Assembly (NCBI GenBank): GCA_009780415.1
Contig: WRAC01000001.1
Coordinates: forward strand, 62,001 to 126,000
Direction: 5' to 3'
Source: Defluviitaleaceae bacterium
Lineage (GTDB): Bacteria > Bacillota > Clostridia > Lachnospirales > WRAX01
Length of the DNA: 64,000 bases
Made by a program: the position numbers and the translations under genes
The notes under the pieces: generated by a model
Told to the model about the DNA's origin: nothing
The model's database searches: none
What the model saw: the letters and a program-made list of their open reading frames with translations, nothing else
Shown here: positions 7,130-58,688 of the stretch, piece by piece
Position numbering within the stretch: the first letter of the stretch is position 1
Layout of the letters: each line of letters opens with the position of its first letter

Positions 7130-7261
7130 TATCTCCCCCCGCGCATTATAGTATATATCTATTTAACCCCCCTGTCAAATTATGTATATAATTATCATGA
7201 ATTCCCCGTCTGCCTGGGTTAAAATGATAAGGTGTTCAAAAATGCCGCCGGGATGGCAGGG

Positions 7262-7440
7262 GACTATGTTCGTAGTTCTAATTAAACTAATGATTTACAT
7301 AGCAGATAAATTTTCCAAAAGAAAATAACCGCCACTCTTTAGCCGGATAACGGTTATTTTCTACCACTTATTTTGGCTAACCGCTTACCGGCAACGCCTT
7401 TTTATGTCCTCATTATACCTAACAAAAACTCTCCTGTCAA
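7262..7440. pseudogene. Type I TA unit copy A: toxin 5' part lost, antisense promoter intact
   Basis: Contains the ...GTAGTTCTAATTAAACTAATG...AAAAGAAAATAA toxin tail without start; minus-strand TTGACA-17-TATAAT at 7440-7412. Confidence 0.7.
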
Positions 7441-7468
7441 TATATTTCGCTTAAACTCCGCAATTTAA

Positions 7469-7497
7469 TTGACAATAAGTCACCCTTGTAATACAAT
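7469..7497 (+). promoter_or_regulatory. Toxin promoter, TA unit B
   Basis: TTGACA, 17 bp, TACAAT. Confidence 0.75.
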
Positions 7498-7594
7498 GAT
7501 CCACGTGGGACTTGTCCCATAGGCGCTGCCATTAGTACACTCTTTGTGTGCGAAGCGGTAGGCGGTTGGCCCCTCCCTGAAAGGGGGTGAGGCT

Positions 7595-7702
7595 ATGTCT
7601 GCATATGATACTATAATCATTATATTTGTAGCTATGACATTCGTCGTAGTTCTAATTAAACTAATGATTTACATAGCAGATAAATTTTCTAAAAGAAAAT
7701 AA
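7595..7702 (+). CDS. Small membrane toxin (Hol-Tox/type I TA), 35 aa, unit B
   Basis: MSAYDTIIIIFVAMTFVVVLIKLMIYIADKFSKRK; Shine-Dalgarno GGGGGTGAGG. Confidence 0.75.
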   Translation: MSAYDTIIIIFVAMTFVVVLIKLMIYIADKFSKRK

Positions 7703-7784
7703 CCGCCACTCTTTAGCCAGATAACGGTTATTTTCAATCGTATTATTGGCTAACCGCTTACCGGCAACGCCTTTTTATATCTTT

Positions 7785-7813
7785 ATTATACCCGGCAAAA
7801 GCGATGCTGTCAA
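7785..7813 (-). promoter_or_regulatory. Antisense RNA promoter, TA unit B
   Basis: Minus strand TTGACA, 17 bp, TATAAT. Confidence 0.75.
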
Positions 7814-7818
7814 GATAT

Positions 7819-8712
7819 TTAACTATGGAAATAGCGCAAAAAAAACCAGGGGCTTTCAAAATCCGCCCTGTAGATGCGGGCTTCCGAGCTTATGCCTTCG
7901 CCAAGGTAAGCGTTTCCCTCAATATCTATCAATAACATCCCGGCCAGCCCCGAAATAACGGCATAACGCCCGATATGGCGGTCATAAGCCATATTTTCGA
8001 TATCCCGCGCTATACGTTCAAGGGTTCGCGATACAAATTCATCTTCCGCGCTCATTTGGGAGAAAATCTCCATGAATTCCGTTCCGATGGCTTCACGCAG
8101 GATTTCCAGTGCCAGAAAACATTTTATCCTCAAGGATTCTATATCGGCTTCCCATTCCCCGGTAAAATCATCCACCCATATGACGGGATTACGTGCCATA
8201 TCCGTATCGTACCCGGCCGCGGATCCGAAAACCTCCGCCAGCCCGCGGACAGGCACATACCAACGTCCGTTTATTTTTTCAGGCGCCGCAAGCAAATCAG
8301 CTTCCTCAAATACTCCGCCTCTGTTCACAGACGCTACCGCTGACCCGTCAGGTATAAAAACCGTGATATTATTGCCTGTCAAAGCAATCCCTCCGCAGGC
8401 GCTTTCCGCATCGGCAACGCCAAAAACCGGCCCGGCGGCGCAGAGAGGCATTAAAGCGCGCCCATCGCGAATTTCGGGTATAAACAGCATAAATTCGCCG
8501 TTTGCCATAAATAACGCCTGGCCCTCCATTGCCTCAACCGTCCCCAAAGGGAACGAGTAGGCGTTAACGGCCGGTTCCCAATCCCAACCATAAACGCCGC
8601 TTTCATCAATAAACCCTATCTGTTTCATATCGTACACCGGGCCGCCGTAAACCGTAACGGGGATTAATAAAATGAACACGGTCACTAAAAATGATTTTAA
8701 GAATTTCATCAT
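7819..8712 (-). CDS. Secreted protein with copper-amine-oxidase-N-like (stalk) domain
   Basis: Signal peptide; KINGRWYVPVRGLAEVFGSAAGYD pattern. Confidence 0.6.
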   Translation of the reverse strand: MMKFLKSFLVTVFILLIPVTVYGGPVYDMKQIGFIDESGVYGWDWEPAVNAYSFPLGTVEAMEGQALFMANGEFMLFIPEIRDGRALMPLCAAGPVFGVADAESACGGIALTGNNITVFIPDGSAVASVNRGGVFEEADLLAAPEKINGRWYVPVRGLAEVFGSAAGYDTDMARNPVIWVDDFTGEWEADIESLRIKCFLALEILREAIGTEFMEIFSQMSAEDEFVSRTLERIARDIENMAYDRHIGRYAVISGLAGMLLIDIEGNAYLGEGISSEARIYRADFESPWFFLRYFHS

Positions 8713-8747
8713 TTTACACTTCCTATTTTATCCTTATAATAATAAAA

Positions 8748-8889
8748 TATGTTTTCCAAAAGAAAATAACCGCCTCTATTCTTTAGCCAGATAATAGGCG
8801 GTTATTTTCTACCAAATTAATTCAGGCTAACCGCTTACCGGCAGCGCCTTTTATGTTCTAATTATACTCAGCGAAAACGCTGCTGTCAA
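8748..8889. pseudogene. Type I TA unit E: only the toxin 3' tail plus intact antisense promoter
   Basis: TTTTCCAAAAGAAAATAA + terminator stem + minus-strand TTGACA-17-TATAAT (8889-8861). Confidence 0.65.
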
Positions 8890-8918
8890 GATATTTCCGT
8901 ACCGGCCCCGCAAAATGA

Positions 8919-8947
8919 TTGACAATAAATCGCTCCTGTATTACAAT
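8919..8947 (+). promoter_or_regulatory. Toxin promoter, TA unit C
   Basis: TTGACA, 17 bp, TACAAT. Confidence 0.75.
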
Positions 8948-9042
8948 ACACGTGGGACTTGTCCCATAGGCGTTGCCAAAAGCATACTTTATGTATGCGA
9001 CAGCGGTAGGCGGTTAGCCGCTCCCTGAAGGGGGGTGAGGCT

Positions 9043-9150
9043 ATGTCTGCATATGATACAATAATCATTATATTTGTGGCTATGACATTCGTCGTAGTTC
9101 TAATTAAACTAATGATTTACATAGCAGATAAATTTTCCAAAAGAAAATAA
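9043..9150 (+). CDS. Small membrane toxin, unit C, identical peptide to unit B
   Basis: MSAYDTIIIIFVAMTFVVVLIKLMIYIADKFSKRK. Confidence 0.75.
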   Translation: MSAYDTIIIIFVAMTFVVVLIKLMIYIADKFSKRK

Positions 9151-9230
9151 CCGCCAATCCTTTGCCTGATAGCGGTTATTTTCTTCCAATATCAGGCTAA
9201 CCGCTTACCGGCAGCGCCTTTTATGTTCTA

Positions 9231-9259
9231 ATTATACTCAGCAAAAACGCTGCTGTCAA
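9231..9259 (-). promoter_or_regulatory. Antisense RNA promoter, TA unit C
   Basis: Minus strand TTGACA, 17 bp, TATAAT. Confidence 0.75.
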
Positions 9260-9288
9260 GATATTTCCGTACCGGCCCCGTAAAGTGA

Positions 9289-9534
9289 TTGACAATAAAT
9301 CGTTCCTGTACTACAATACACGCGGGATTTGTCCCATAGGCGTTGCTAAAAGCATACTTTATCGTAGTTCTAATTAAACTAATAATTTACATAGCAGATA
9401 TGTTTTCCAAAAGAAAATAACCGCCCATCTCTAGCCAGATAACGGTTATTTTCTACCAATTAATATCAGGCTAACCGCTTACCGGCAGCGCCTTTTTCTA
9501 TTCCTATTATACCTGAGGAAAAACATCCTGTCAA
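9289..9534. pseudogene. Type I TA unit D: toxin promoter and antisense promoter intact, internal deletion removes RBS and toxin N-terminus
   Basis: TTGACA-17-TACAAT at 9289-9317; junction ...AAAGCATACTTT|ATCGTAGTTC...; minus-strand TTGACA-17-TATAAT (9534-9506). Confidence 0.75.
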
Positions 9535-9557
9535 GGTATTTAAGCGGATTGCTCCGC

Positions 9558-25558: not shown

Positions 25559-28500
25559 TTAATTACCCATCGATTCGGTTGCAACCGAAAGCATCAGCTT
25601 AATCCGGTTCAACTGATTAACCTCGCTTGCGCCGGGATCATAGTCAACTGCGACTACATTTGTTCCCGGCCAAAGCCTCCTTAATTCTTTAATTATTCCC
25701 TTTCCAGTCACGTGGTTCGGCAGACATGCGAAGGGCTGCGCGCACACAATATTTTTCACGCCGGATTTGATAAGCTCAATCATTTCAGCCGTCAGGAACC
25801 ATCCTTCACCGCTCTGATTCCCCATCGAAACAATCGGCTTCGCCAATTTCGCCAATTCGGTTATTTTCTGCGGAGGCACAAACCTGCGGCTCGCGGTCAA
25901 AGCCTTCCCGGCAAAACCCCTATACCGCTCAATTACCCGTATCATCACATTCGTTAAGCATTTTACCCACCAAGACCCGCCAAAATACTTCCATTTATAC
26001 GTAGAATTATATAAACCATAAAGGAAGAAATCGGTTAGATCCGGCACCACGGCTTCCGCTCCTTCGGCCTCCAAAAGCCCTACAATATCATTGTTAGCCG
26101 TTGGATGATACTTCACAAGTATCTCACCAACCACCCCAACTTTCGGTTTATCAACCGAATTCAACTCTATTTCATCGAAATCTTTAATTATTCCATATGT
26201 ATTCCTTTTTAACTCCCTAAACTTCCCCCTTCGCACCGCGCCCTTCAAAACCCTCACCCATCGCCCGCAAAGCCCGTCAACCGCGCCTTTCACTTTTTCA
26301 TACGGCCTTGTCGCGTACACCGTTCTCATCAGCAAATCCCCATATATCAACGCTTGCATGCTTTTATTCAACAAACCCAGCCCAAGCTTCATGCCGGGAT
26401 GTTTCTCAAACCCCTGCGCCGACAGCGCAATCACCGGAATCCCCGGAAATCCGGCCTTCACAAGCGCCCTCCTGATAAACCCAACATAGTTCGACGCCCT
26501 GCACCCGCCGCCCGTCTGCGTCATCACAACCGAAAGCTTTTCCGTATCATACTCGCCGCTGAAAACCGCCTTCAACACCTGTCCCACAACAATCACCGCC
26601 GGATAACATGCGTCGTTGTTAACGTACCGTAACCCTATATCCACGGCATCCTTGTCCATCGCAGGCAGCACGCGCAAGTCATATCCCTCCGCCTGAAACG
26701 CCTCCTGCACCAGCTCAAAATGCAGCGGGGACATCTGCGGAGATAATACTGTGTGTCTGTATTTCATTTCCCGTGCGAAGAGAGGGAACCCGTCTAAATG
26801 CGGTTTTACATTTTTAACCGAATTAACCGAATATTTCCCGTCTCTTGCGCGAAGCGCCGCAAACAGCGACCTAACCCGGATTCTCGCGCTGCCAAGGTTA
26901 TTGACCTCGTCTATTTTAAGCAGCGTAAAAATCTTACCCTCTCTGTTCAAAATATCCTGAACCTCATCCGTAGTCACGGCATCCAGCCCGCAGCCGAACG
27001 AATTCAACTGAATCAAGTCAATATTCGGTTGGCCGCATACAAATCGCGCGGCTGAATATAGCCTGGAATGATACATCCACTGGTCACGCACATTCAACCG
27101 AATATTTCGGTTATCACCCGGCAAATGGGCAACCGAATCCTCTGAAAGCACCGCAACCCCAAACCCCGTAATCATCTCAGGTATCCCGTGGTTAATCTCA
27201 GGATCGGCATGATACGGCCTCCCAGCCAACACAACGCCCCTCTGCCCGGATTGCCTCAGGTACTCCAGCGCCCTCTCGCCTTCACTTCGCACATCCTCGC
27301 AAAACCGCTCCTGTTCGGTTAAGGCTTTCTTCAGCGCACGCGATATCTCACGCTTAGGCACCTCCGGCAAAGCCGCCGCAAGCCCGTTAAGCAGGGCTTT
27401 CTTGTTATTCAACGTTAAGAAGGGATTCCTGAAATCAATACCTTCCGTACGCAATTCCTCTACATTCAACCGAATATTCTCCGGATAACTGGCAACAATC
27501 GGGCAGTTATAGCAGCTTTCACCCGAATCAGTTTCATCTTTTTCATAAACCACACTGGGATAGAAAATAAATTTCACCCCGTCCCCAATCAGCTCCATAA
27601 TATGCCCATGGGCCAATTTCGCGGGATAACACACGCTTTCGCTGGGCATACTCTCCATGCCCTTCTCATAAACCCCGCGCGTAGTACACGGCGACAACTT
27701 AACCGAATAGCCTAATTCGGTAAAAAGCGTATGCCACAACGGATAATTCTCATACATGTTAAGCACACGCGGAATCCCCACAACGCCGCGCTTTGCCAGC
27801 TTCTCCGGCAGCGGCTCATAATCGAAGACCCTCTTATTCTTATACGCGTACAAATTCGGTAACTCTGAATTCAGCTTAACCGAATCCTCATTACCCGAAA
27901 ACGCCTGTACCCTCTCGCAACGGTTACCCGAAATAAACCGCCGTTCAACCGAATTATCACCGATTTCCGTAAACCTGTTTACCGTCAGCAAGCAATTGTT
28001 CCCGCAGCCCTTACAACGGCTCAAACTAGGCGAAATCCGCAACGCAACAAGCTTCTCCCGCGTCAAAATCCCCGAAGCAACCCGCTCCCCGGCCGCAACC
28101 GCAACCGAACCGCAAGCATACTCATCATCCAAAACGAAAGGGTCAAGGGGCGAAGCTCCTTGCAGGGGCTTGGGGACAGAGTCCTCAAGGTCTTGTCCTT
28201 TATCCCTGGCAATCAAAGCCGCGCCATAAGCCCCCATAAGCCCCGCAATATCAGGCCTCGCGGCCCGTTTCCCGGCAATCTGCTCAAACGCGCGAAGCAC
28301 GGCGTCATTCAAAAACGTGCCGCCCTGCACCACCGCGCGGCTGCCCAAATCCTGCGGGTCGGTGATTTTTATAACCTTTTGCAGCGCGTTTTTCACAACG
28401 CTGTACGCAAGCCCCGCGGCGATATCCCCGACATCCGCGCCCTCTTTCTGCGCCTGCTTAACGCGGCTGTTCATGAAAACGGTGCAGCGGCTGCCCAAAT

Positions 28501-29938
28501 CTATAGGATTCCCGGCGAACAGCGCAATCTCGGCAAACTCGGACGCGGTATACCCCATACTAGCGGCGAACGTCTCGATAAAAGAGCCGCAGCCCGCGCT
28601 GCAAGCCTCGTTCAGCAGCACATTCTCAATCGCCCCATCCTTCACGCGGATGCATTTCATATCCTGCCCGCCGATATCAAGTATAAAATCCACATCCGGC
28701 ACAAAATGGGCGGCGGCACGGTAATGCGCGACGGTCTCAATCTCACCCAAATCCACGCACAGCGCGGCTTTCACAAGATTCTCCCCATACCCCGTCACAC
28801 AGCTCTGCGAAATATATGCACAATCCGGCATAGTTTCATATATGCAATTCAACGAATCAATAATTACTTTCAAGGGATTTCCTTGGTTATTCTGATAACT
28901 GGAATGCAAAAGCTCGCCATCGGCTCCAATCAACGCCAGCTTCGTCGTCGTCGAGCCCGCGTCAATGCCAAGGAAACACGGCCCGCTGTATTCGGTTAAA
29001 TCGGCATGAACAACCGAATCAGTCTTGTGCGATTTCGTAAATTCGGTCAGCGCCGTCTCCGACCGAAAAAGCGGCTCAAGCCTCGCTATCTCAAAATTAA
29101 CCTTCTTATTATTATGTAAGTTATGTATTAATTCACTTAGCGTCAATCCCGGCAAAACCACGCTGTGCGCCGTGCTGTACGCCGCGCCCATCGCCGCGAA
29201 CAAATGCCCGTTTTCCGGCGACAAAGCGTTCCTCTCCTCCAAATTCAACACCTTAACAAACCGCTGCCTAAGCTCCGGCAGGAAATGCAGCGGCCCGCCC
29301 AAAAACATCACGTTTCCGCGGATCGGCTTGCCGCAGGCCAGCCCGCTGATGGTCTGCGCCACAACCGCGGCAAAAATCGACGCCGCCAAATCCTCGCGCG
29401 ACGCGCCCTCGTTAATCAGCGGCTGGACGTCGCTCTTCGCGAAAACCCCGCACCTCGCCGCGATGGGATAAATGTTCGAAGCGCCCTCCGCAAGGCGGTT
29501 CAGCCCGGCGGCATCCGTCTGCAAAAGCGCCGCCATCTGGTCGATAAACGCGCCCGTGCCGCCCGCGCAAATGCCGTTCATGCGCTGCTCCAGCCCGCCC
29601 GTAAAGTAAATAATCTTGGCATCCTCGCCGCCAATCTCAATGGCCACGTCGCACTCAGGCGCGCCAAACCGCACGGCCGTTGCAACCGCGACAACCTCCT
29701 GCACAAAGGGAACCCCTATCCACTCCGCAATGGAAAGCCCGCCCGAGCCCGTAATTACGGCATCAAGCGGCTCCGTCCCAATCTCCGCTTCGGCCGCCGC
29801 AAACAGCGCCCCAAGCGTCTCCGCAATATTAGTAAAATGCCGCGCGTACCGTGAAAAAACAAGGCTTCCGCCCTCGTCCACAACCGCGACCTTCACCGTA
29901 GTCGAGCCTATATCAATACCCAAACGTAATTTAGCCAT
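25559..29938 (-). CDS. Multidomain acyl-CoA dehydratase activase / 2-hydroxyacyl-CoA dehydratase activator (BadF/BadG-type domains plus HgdB-like region)
   Basis: MAKLRLGIDIGSTTVKVAVVDE; second LGIDAGSTTTKLALIG domain; CxxC and NDACYP motifs; Shine-Dalgarno TAGGAGG. Confidence 0.9.
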   Translation of the reverse strand: MAKLRLGIDIGSTTVKVAVVDEGGSLVFSRYARHFTNIAETLGALFAAAEAEIGTEPLDAVITGSGGLSIAEWIGVPFVQEVVAVATAVRFGAPECDVAIEIGGEDAKIIYFTGGLEQRMNGICAGGTGAFIDQMAALLQTDAAGLNRLAEGASNIYPIAARCGVFAKSDVQPLINEGASREDLAASIFAAVVAQTISGLACGKPIRGNVMFLGGPLHFLPELRQRFVKVLNLEERNALSPENGHLFAAMGAAYSTAHSVVLPGLTLSELIHNLHNNKKVNFEIARLEPLFRSETALTEFTKSHKTDSVVHADLTEYSGPCFLGIDAGSTTTKLALIGADGELLHSSYQNNQGNPLKVIIDSLNCIYETMPDCAYISQSCVTGYGENLVKAALCVDLGEIETVAHYRAAAHFVPDVDFILDIGGQDMKCIRVKDGAIENVLLNEACSAGCGSFIETFAASMGYTASEFAEIALFAGNPIDLGSRCTVFMNSRVKQAQKEGADVGDIAAGLAYSVVKNALQKVIKITDPQDLGSRAVVQGGTFLNDAVLRAFEQIAGKRAARPDIAGLMGAYGAALIARDKGQDLEDSVPKPLQGASPLDPFVLDDEYACGSVAVAAGERVASGILTREKLVALRISPSLSRCKGCGNNCLLTVNRFTEIGDNSVERRFISGNRCERVQAFSGNEDSVKLNSELPNLYAYKNKRVFDYEPLPEKLAKRGVVGIPRVLNMYENYPLWHTLFTELGYSVKLSPCTTRGVYEKGMESMPSESVCYPAKLAHGHIMELIGDGVKFIFYPSVVYEKDETDSGESCYNCPIVASYPENIRLNVEELRTEGIDFRNPFLTLNNKKALLNGLAAALPEVPKREISRALKKALTEQERFCEDVRSEGERALEYLRQSGQRGVVLAGRPYHADPEINHGIPEMITGFGVAVLSEDSVAHLPGDNRNIRLNVRDQWMYHSRLYSAARFVCGQPNIDLIQLNSFGCGLDAVTTDEVQDILNREGKIFTLLKIDEVNNLGSARIRVRSLFAALRARDGKYSVNSVKNVKPHLDGFPLFAREMKYRHTVLSPQMSPLHFELVQEAFQAEGYDLRVLPAMDKDAVDIGLRYVNNDACYPAVIVVGQVLKAVFSGEYDTEKLSVVMTQTGGGCRASNYVGFIRRALVKAGFPGIPVIALSAQGFEKHPGMKLGLGLLNKSMQALIYGDLLMRTVYATRPYEKVKGAVDGLCGRWVRVLKGAVRRGKFRELKRNTYGIIKDFDEIELNSVDKPKVGVVGEILVKYHPTANNDIVGLLEAEGAEAVVPDLTDFFLYGLYNSTYKWKYFGGSWWVKCLTNVMIRVIERYRGFAGKALTASRRFVPPQKITELAKLAKPIVSMGNQSGEGWFLTAEMIELIKSGVKNIVCAQPFACLPNHVTGKGIIKELRRLWPGTNVVAVDYDPGASEVNQLNRIKLMLSVATESMGN
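28131..28196 (+). repeat. Dispersed GGGTCAAGGGGCGAA...AAGGTCTT repeat, copy 1 (inside activase ORF)
   Basis: Matches copies at 30844, 43612 (inverted) and 45906. Confidence 0.8.
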
Positions 29939-29949
29939 TCTACCTCCTA

Positions 29950-30113
29950 AGAGCCTGTCTAGTATCTCCATTCCGGCGTCTTTTCGGTAAATTTTCCGTT
30001 ATGCGTCGTCACGAAAAACCTTCCGTGCCTTCGGGCACGCGCAGTTTTCCGTTCCTAGCCTAACGAAAAATTTACGCGAAAATCCACCGAAAGCGAGATA
30101 CTAGACAGGCTCT
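29950..30113. repeat. 164-bp structured inverted-repeat element, copy 1
   Basis: 19-bp perfect terminal arms AGAGCCTGTCTAGTATCTC / GAGATACTAGACAGGCTCT; core matches 58340-58501. Confidence 0.85.
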
Positions 30114-30254
30114 GAAAACTAAAATCAATCCCATTAAAAATTATAATATCGCCCAATAATATTTTCAACGCACAAAATTTATCACAAATGTAATTTTTTA
30201 TCCAATCGGTGACGATATTAATAATACGCTGTATAATACGGGAGGGGTATCCTT

Positions 30255-37177: not shown

Positions 37178-37299
37178 GCTGTCCCATACCGAAACGCGTG
37201 GGGTGGGGCGGGCCGCCGCGTACGCGGCGTGTGCGCCTGCGGCGCACAGCGCGGGAACCGCGCGCCCGCCCCACCCCACGCGTTTCGGTATGGGACAGC
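37178..37299. repeat. 122-bp element with 36-bp perfect inverted-repeat arms
   Basis: GCTGTCCCATACCGAAACGCGTGGGGTGGGGCGGGC / reverse complement at 37264-37299. Confidence 0.9.
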
Positions 37300-58257: not shown

Positions 58258-58339
58258 TTCTCACCCCGTATATAAGAACGATAAATATCAGACCTGTCCG
58301 GCAACTTGCATTCGGCGGATTTCTTTGATATTTTATATT

Positions 58340-58501
58340 AGACCTGTCCGGTAACCTGCTTTCGGTGGATTTTCGCGCAAATTTTTTGTTATGCTAGGAA
58401 CGAAAAACCGCGTGTGCCCAAAGGCACAGAAGGTTTTTTGTGACGACGCAGAACGGAAAATTTGCCGGAAAGACGCCGGAACGAGGTTACCGGACAGGTC
58501 T
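58340..58501. repeat. 162-bp structured inverted-repeat element, copy 2
   Basis: 18-bp perfect arms AGACCTGTCCGGTAACCT / AGGTTACCGGACAGGTCT; core homologous to 29950-30113; extra left end at 58290-58323. Confidence 0.85.
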
Positions 58502-58688
58502 ATTGATAAAAGTAACAAAAATCGACCGGGATTTCAAGATAAATAATAACCATCTTATCTTTACACTAAGCCCATGATTTGATAAGATGGATTACGATAA
58601 TATAAAATAATTTTATTTACCCTCTTGACTTGAACATGATGTCGCAGTTTAAACTCTCTTTAAGAGATTGGGAAAGGAGGGTACGGTC

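Follow-up and report, generated by a model that had tools for sequence, protein, structure and literature searches.

When two nearly complete hairpins of approximately 160 bp in one bacterial genome share a common core but differ in their outer arms, with each pair of arms remaining self-complementary, the question arises whether the conserved entity is an RNA fold, a mobile element, or both. Two such hairpins are located in the 64,000-nucleotide stretch of a Defluviitaleaceae genome (hereinafter, the window). The initial annotation placed them at 29950-30113 (minus strand) and 58340-58501 (plus strand), interpreted the arm difference as covariation, and proposed either a conserved RNA fold or a MITE. 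Both the positions and the arms (AGAGCCTGTCTAGTATCTC and TAGACCTGTCCGGTAACCT, each of which matches its own partner perfectly) were borne out; the two copies comprise an inverted pair of 156 nt with 85% identity and consist of the following parts.

29951..30112, minus strand: A-class hairpin element, copy 1 (162 bp, GAGCC..GGCTC)
29948..29950: copy 1 flank TAA, target duplication in the plus-strand reading (from the sequence and the class pattern)
30113..30115: copy 1 flank TGA (from the sequence), different by one base from the TAA opposite
30095..30112, minus strand: copy 1, 5' terminal inverted repeat GAGCCTGTCTAGTATCTC, close to the ends of IS5-family insertion sequences (GAGCCTGTTTAAAATCTC)
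29951..29968, minus strand: copy 1, 3' terminal inverted repeat
29969..30094, minus strand: copy 1, conserved core (covariance model R1, 141 bits)
30052..30056, minus strand: copy 1, conserved internal loop, 5' side AGGAA
30003..30011, minus strand: copy 1, conserved internal loop, 3' side TGACGACGC
58341..58500, plus strand: B-class hairpin element, copy 2 (160 bp, GACC..GGTC)
58339..58340: copy 2, left target duplication TA (from the sequence; target TTAT)
58501..58502: copy 2, right target duplication TA (from the sequence)
58358..58483, plus strand: copy 2, conserved core (covariance model R1, 135.8 bits)
58396..58400, plus strand: copy 2, conserved internal loop, 5' side AGGAA
58441..58449, plus strand: copy 2, conserved internal loop, 3' side TGACGACGC
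58290..58323, plus strand: 5' remnant of a further, truncated B-class copy, immediately 5' of copy 2, absent from the initial annotation

Folding of the sense strand yields one hairpin for each copy, with energies of -102.8 and -103.5 kcal/mol for copies 1 and 2, respectively (z = -13.7 and -15.3), and no shuffled sequence folded equally well. As had been noticed previously, copy 1 ends next to an activase gene, which is of the BadF/BadG type (start at 29938, minus strand) and whose Shine-Dalgarno sequence AGGAGG starts approximately 3 bases past the element; copy 2 is flanked by a response-regulator gene on one side and a MerR-family gene on the other. No open reading frame of 120 or more amino acids is listed inside either copy, no match in Rfam, under gathering or relaxed thresholds, reached the cut-off of any family, and we found no earlier description of this hairpin family in the open-access literature.

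The window contains other repeats as well. At 7180-9540, several cassettes approximately 370 bp apart, recognized by eye, encode MSAYDTIIIIFVAMTFVVVLIKLMIYIADKFSKRK-like small hydrophobic peptides and resemble type I toxin-antitoxin (holin-like toxin) repeats. A different hairpin of 122 bp, with perfect 36-bp arms starting GCTGTCCCATACCGAAACGCG, occupies 37178-37299, and copies of a further dispersed repeat, approximately 70 bp long (GGGTCAAGGGG..CTTGGGGACAGAGTCC), are found at 28131, 30839, 43659 (minus strand) and 45904.

The two copies are not alone: BLAST and further collection identified at least 15 distinct copies in the same genome (2.53 Mb in 85 contigs). Full-length or partial copies were detected by BLAST on many contigs and fell into two tight groups, namely, A (contigs C1, C20, C33 and C25) and B (contigs C1, C56, C19, C72, C41, C18 and C4, with a partial copy on C58), such that the identity of intact copies is mostly 88-99% inside a group and approximately 85% between A and B; the nearest kin of copy 1 in this genome are 98% (C20), 92% (C33) and 88% (C25) identical to it. 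The tightness of the groups implies that the arm difference between copies 1 and 2 is a single subfamily split, with each subfamily having multiplied since, so that what was originally read as covariation in these two copies is one such split and does not amount to statistical covariation. Two further copies in this genome (L013 and L019) combine an inner hairpin that is nearly that of A and B with CTAG duplications and an unrelated outer stem. In one B-class copy (L029, G000:C4:78535-78734), a 34-nt perfect palindrome, GTAGCTATTCGCATTCTAGAATGCGAATAGCTAC, is inserted beside the internal loop; perhaps, this is a still smaller mobile palindrome.

Evidence of mobility comes from the ends. Among the 206 collected copies on which the end classes were judged, the typical element is 160-165 bp long and has terminal inverted repeats, and each recurring end class has a target duplication of its own, so that three types, TNA, TA and CTAG, are found around one core. 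In the A class, the flanking 3-mers are identical in 22 of 27 copies and are TTA/TTA or TAA/TAA in 21 of the 27; copy 1 itself, with TAA and TGA in the plus-strand reading, is one base short of a perfect TNA duplication. B-class elements, with the ends GACCTGTCC, are flanked by TA on both sides in 27 of 30 cases, within a TTAT target that occurs in one or the other reading direction, and CTAG is present on both sides in four copies of the third type. Moreover, in one locus (L160), a B copy is nested inside an A copy, with TA duplicated; in a set with one genome per species, this nesting is an indirect sign of mobility.

A search with an IS5-family transposase of a termite-gut relative (G053, see below) as the query detected full-length insertion sequences of this family (DUF4096 + DDE_Tnp_1), 849-966 bp long, plus one of 1384 bp, that carry A-class ends and TTA or TAA duplications. 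In one of these (L302; ends GAGCCTGTTTAAAATCTC, TTA/TTA), 16 of 16 terminal bases are the same as in the end of the hairpin element L137. Three others with A-type ends are:

L325: IS5-family insertion sequence, 966 bp, TAA/TAA
L300: IS5-family insertion sequence, 869 bp, TTA/TTA
L301: IS5-family insertion sequence, 849 bp, TAA/TAA

All four belong to sister families; in the genome that contains the window, the sole IS5-type ends found (L203, AGAACCTGTCTTCA) bear only a loose resemblance to the A class. At L208, the ends of a different IS5-family insertion sequence are AGAGCTTATCCCTAAATAA, flanked by TTA/TTA, and resemble those of the hairpin elements L088 and L192. By the homology of ends and target, as opposed to experiment, the IS5 family is the likely partner of the A class. 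No transposase with B-class ends was found. IS630 is not supported as a B-class partner: IS630 elements are present in some of the carriers, without B-class ends. Separately, in L339 (G024:C53), A-class ends approximately 1.2 kb apart enclose an IS630-type transposase gene; probably, an IS630 element resides within a hairpin element here. Taken together, the target duplications, the nested insertion and the matching insertion sequences of the A class bear out one side of the original alternative, and the identity of the hairpin family as MITEs is well supported.

The core extends far beyond this genome. When 58 genomes were searched by BLAST, relatives turned up in 12, counting the genome of the window. 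Of 392 genomes of the order, 60 matched the covariance model R1 of the core, which was built on a sequence-only alignment of 12 copies, as did 43 of 391 genomes drawn from the class, most genomes thus being without a match; many of the carriers contain tens of copies, with distinct places in the genome used for the count instead of R1 matches, which may register some copies on both strands. A pattern scan of genome contigs found true copies in one named organism only, the termite-gut Defluviitaleaceae MAG Th196P3bin142 (G053), Defluviitaleaceae being a family of Lachnospirales (NCBI taxonomy); matches in Quinella, Selenomonadaceae and others lack the hairpin and look like chance. Among seven matches in viral contigs, one copy is convincing, and the plasmid and phage records searched for the element contained no copy. 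Distant members retain the T-rich/A-rich stem together with the internal loop, AGGAA on the 5' side and TGACGnnGC on the 3' side. In L178, L182, L173 and L181, from other orders of the class, two oppositely oriented core hairpins are combined in one larger element.

Across this range, the ends and the core have different histories. The ends show a mean identity of 0.77 between genomes inside one end class; for the inner domain, the identity is 0.69 between elements of the same genome with different end classes and 0.61 between elements of the same end class in other genomes, against a background of 0.60. These figures indicate that the ends follow the end class (presumably, the transposase) and the inner hairpins follow the host genome. 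Judged by these identities, ends and core behave as evolutionary modules, with end classes common to many genomes. Acquisition of new ends within a lineage and conversion among copies would both produce this pattern, and adaptation of the inner domain to the host is a possibility.

The other side of the original alternative, a conserved fold, depends on the family as a whole. In an alignment made by MAFFT from sequence only, 25 of the 46 core pairs have changed on both sides, compared to 13.8 +- 2.1 in shuffled controls (none of 500 reached the observed value) and 10-14 when the pairing was slid; in the class-level set, the alignment of which was fitted to the structure, 92% of the cells are paired versus 61% upon shuffling. 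Furthermore, the two strands are not equivalent. The sense strand, confirmed by the loop motif, is the more stable one as RNA in 138 of 143 copies, with a mean gap of 15 kcal/mol, and is favored in 60 of 62 combinations of genome and end class; with DNA energies, it is favored in 140 of 143 copies. Accordingly skewed are the mismatches, with 539 G.T against 143 A.C in the core stem (64:6 by groups) and 118 against 26 in the arms (31:5 by groups), an asymmetry that is possibly somewhat inflated because the copies were gathered with a structure model that rewards G.U, the MAFFT table being skewed likewise. The G.T mismatch is more stable than A.C in DNA as well, so the asymmetry does not separate RNA from single-stranded DNA. 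Finally, the internal loop AGGAA/TGACGnnGC is conserved in sequence across the class, and a GA/GA loop also persists. A kink-turn reading of the internal loop, attempted by hand, needed extra bulges to fit and was rejected.

The principal rival to a functional fold is that these are plain DNA MITEs in which replication template switching or gene conversion between the arms of a quasi-palindrome generates the double changes in single events. The arms are indeed nearly perfect, with 17 of 17 positions paired in many copies, and the homogenized inner domain within genomes fits conversion between copies. Nevertheless, we consider this explanation unlikely: correction of one arm by the other should erase mismatched loops, and both GA/GA and AGGAA/TGACGnnGC persist class-wide; such correction is, moreover, symmetric with respect to the strands, and yet G.T outnumbers A.C about fourfold. 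The inequality of the strands also argues against terminal repeats kept only for the transposase, which, like arm copying, would treat the strands alike. Thus, the covariation claimed originally, although reducible to one A/B split in the two copies at hand, is strong and strand-specific family-wide, and the evidence supports selection for a core fold of the sense strand.

We therefore regard as probable the interpretation that the family is a MITE superfamily with a core constrained as a one-stranded fold that acts for the element, and with ends that match the transposase that moves it. Under this scenario, the element is a non-autonomous mini-transposon that consists of one long hairpin; the A copies would be moved in trans by IS5-family transposases or their relatives, and the B copies by a separate transposase that prefers the TTAT target and duplicates TA. 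The arms would stay matched for two reasons, namely, that the transposase must recognize the same sequence at both ends and that the whole sense strand is selected to fold, the latter being suggested by the family-wide compensatory changes, the large excess of G.U over A.C on one strand and the class-wide loop sequence. The fold would then serve the element, either as an RNA of its own or, while it spreads, as single-stranded DNA, and not the regulation of an adjoining gene, given that the orientation relative to the flanking genes is mostly random.

In numbers, copies located between co-directional genes comprise 43 in the sense and 53 in the antisense orientation (p = 0.36); the occurrence of both orientations makes it unlikely that the asymmetry stems from selection on host mRNAs and suggests, instead, that it reflects the life of the element itself. 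In G053 (L212-L230 and others), which differs from the family overall, 13 copies in this setting are antisense and 3 are sense. These observations bear directly on the proposal that the element is useful to the host in the manner of REP or ERIC sequences, with the transcribed hairpin processing or stabilizing mRNAs and the copies retained for that purpose. The copies are intergenic and often lie right at stop codons, copy 1 is within the leader of the activase gene, and the transcripts of ERIC and NEMIS are known to act on neighboring mRNAs (PMC2229807). Apart from the lack of an overall orientation preference, though, the neighboring genes are unrelated, the end classes are lineage-specific and recently spread, and proximity to stop codons is also expected from TA targets combined with selection against gene disruption, all of which makes host utility an improbable explanation.

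One genome shows a distinct pattern of orientation. In the complete genome G304, which belongs to the same order, 31 distant copies that lack the conserved loop (loci L413-L432) follow the direction of the replichore, with 1 plus and 9 minus copies at 0-1.65 Mb and 18 plus and 3 minus copies at 1.65-3.4 Mb. As a general rule, replichore orientation was rejected because it is confined to G304, with no such bias in G553 (80 copies) or G564. The same two genomes weigh against recognition of a single-stranded DNA hairpin by a Y1 transposase (RAYT/IS200-type), as with REP sequences; the strand-specific hairpin with mismatches and the orientation in G304 would be compatible with such a mechanism, but both the target duplications and the inverted terminal repeats point to DDE enzymes, so that we deem it very improbable. 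That the element is a cis-acting, riboswitch-like RNA leader of the activase gene, later duplicated to other sites, is hardly credible, notwithstanding the position of copy 1 directly before the Shine-Dalgarno sequence, given that the family adjoins other genes in many genomes, in both orientations, and has no match in Rfam. Going beyond the favored interpretation, one could imagine class-wide parasitic, RNA-like modules in which a folded core that is recognized by a host factor and adapted to each host genome persists by acquiring, time and again, ends that belong to different DDE transposases; this is a tentative idea that we are inclined to doubt.

Bacterial MITEs are usually viewed as leftovers of one insertion sequence. 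The hairpin family described here is a new MITE superfamily of Clostridia, with exchangeable ends and a class-wide core fold selected on one strand, and the retention of this fold while the ends and duplications change suggests that the hairpin has some function for the element. The family is, furthermore, an uncatalogued common repeat of Clostridia, those of termite guts included, with consequences for assembly, annotation and gene leaders, and it offers a dataset in which selection for folding is separable from selection for transposase ends.

Several known systems share parts of this anatomy. The IS5 family (DUF4096 + DDE_Tnp_1) has the same A-class ends and 3-bp TTA/TAA duplication in its full-length insertion sequences, but the hairpin element carries no gene, and no counterpart of the core was seen inside those insertion sequences. 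The bcr1 repeat of the Bacillus cereus group, as described, is also short and mobile and is reported to keep a stable RNA fold; it is not known to swap ends. REP sequences and REPINs are similarly dispersed, hairpin-forming and non-autonomous but are much shorter, lack target duplications and depend on Y1 transposases. The nearest systems in anatomy are ERIC (IRU) and the Correia elements (NEMIS), which, in a comparison of layout only, are likewise full-length hairpins of 100-200 bp with TA ends and many intergenic copies (PMC2229807). These are proteobacterial, with one end type per family as described (PMC2229807), whereas the clostridial core is associated with several end classes and duplications class-wide and has, in addition, an internal loop conserved in sequence. 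With respect to an RNA module that changes transposase partners, the nearest precedent is the IStrons, in which one such module, a group I intron, is joined to parts of different transposase families, IS200/IS605 or IS607 (PMC4227781); the hairpin family, by contrast, has neither ribozyme nor transposase gene, and its core is a simple long hairpin.
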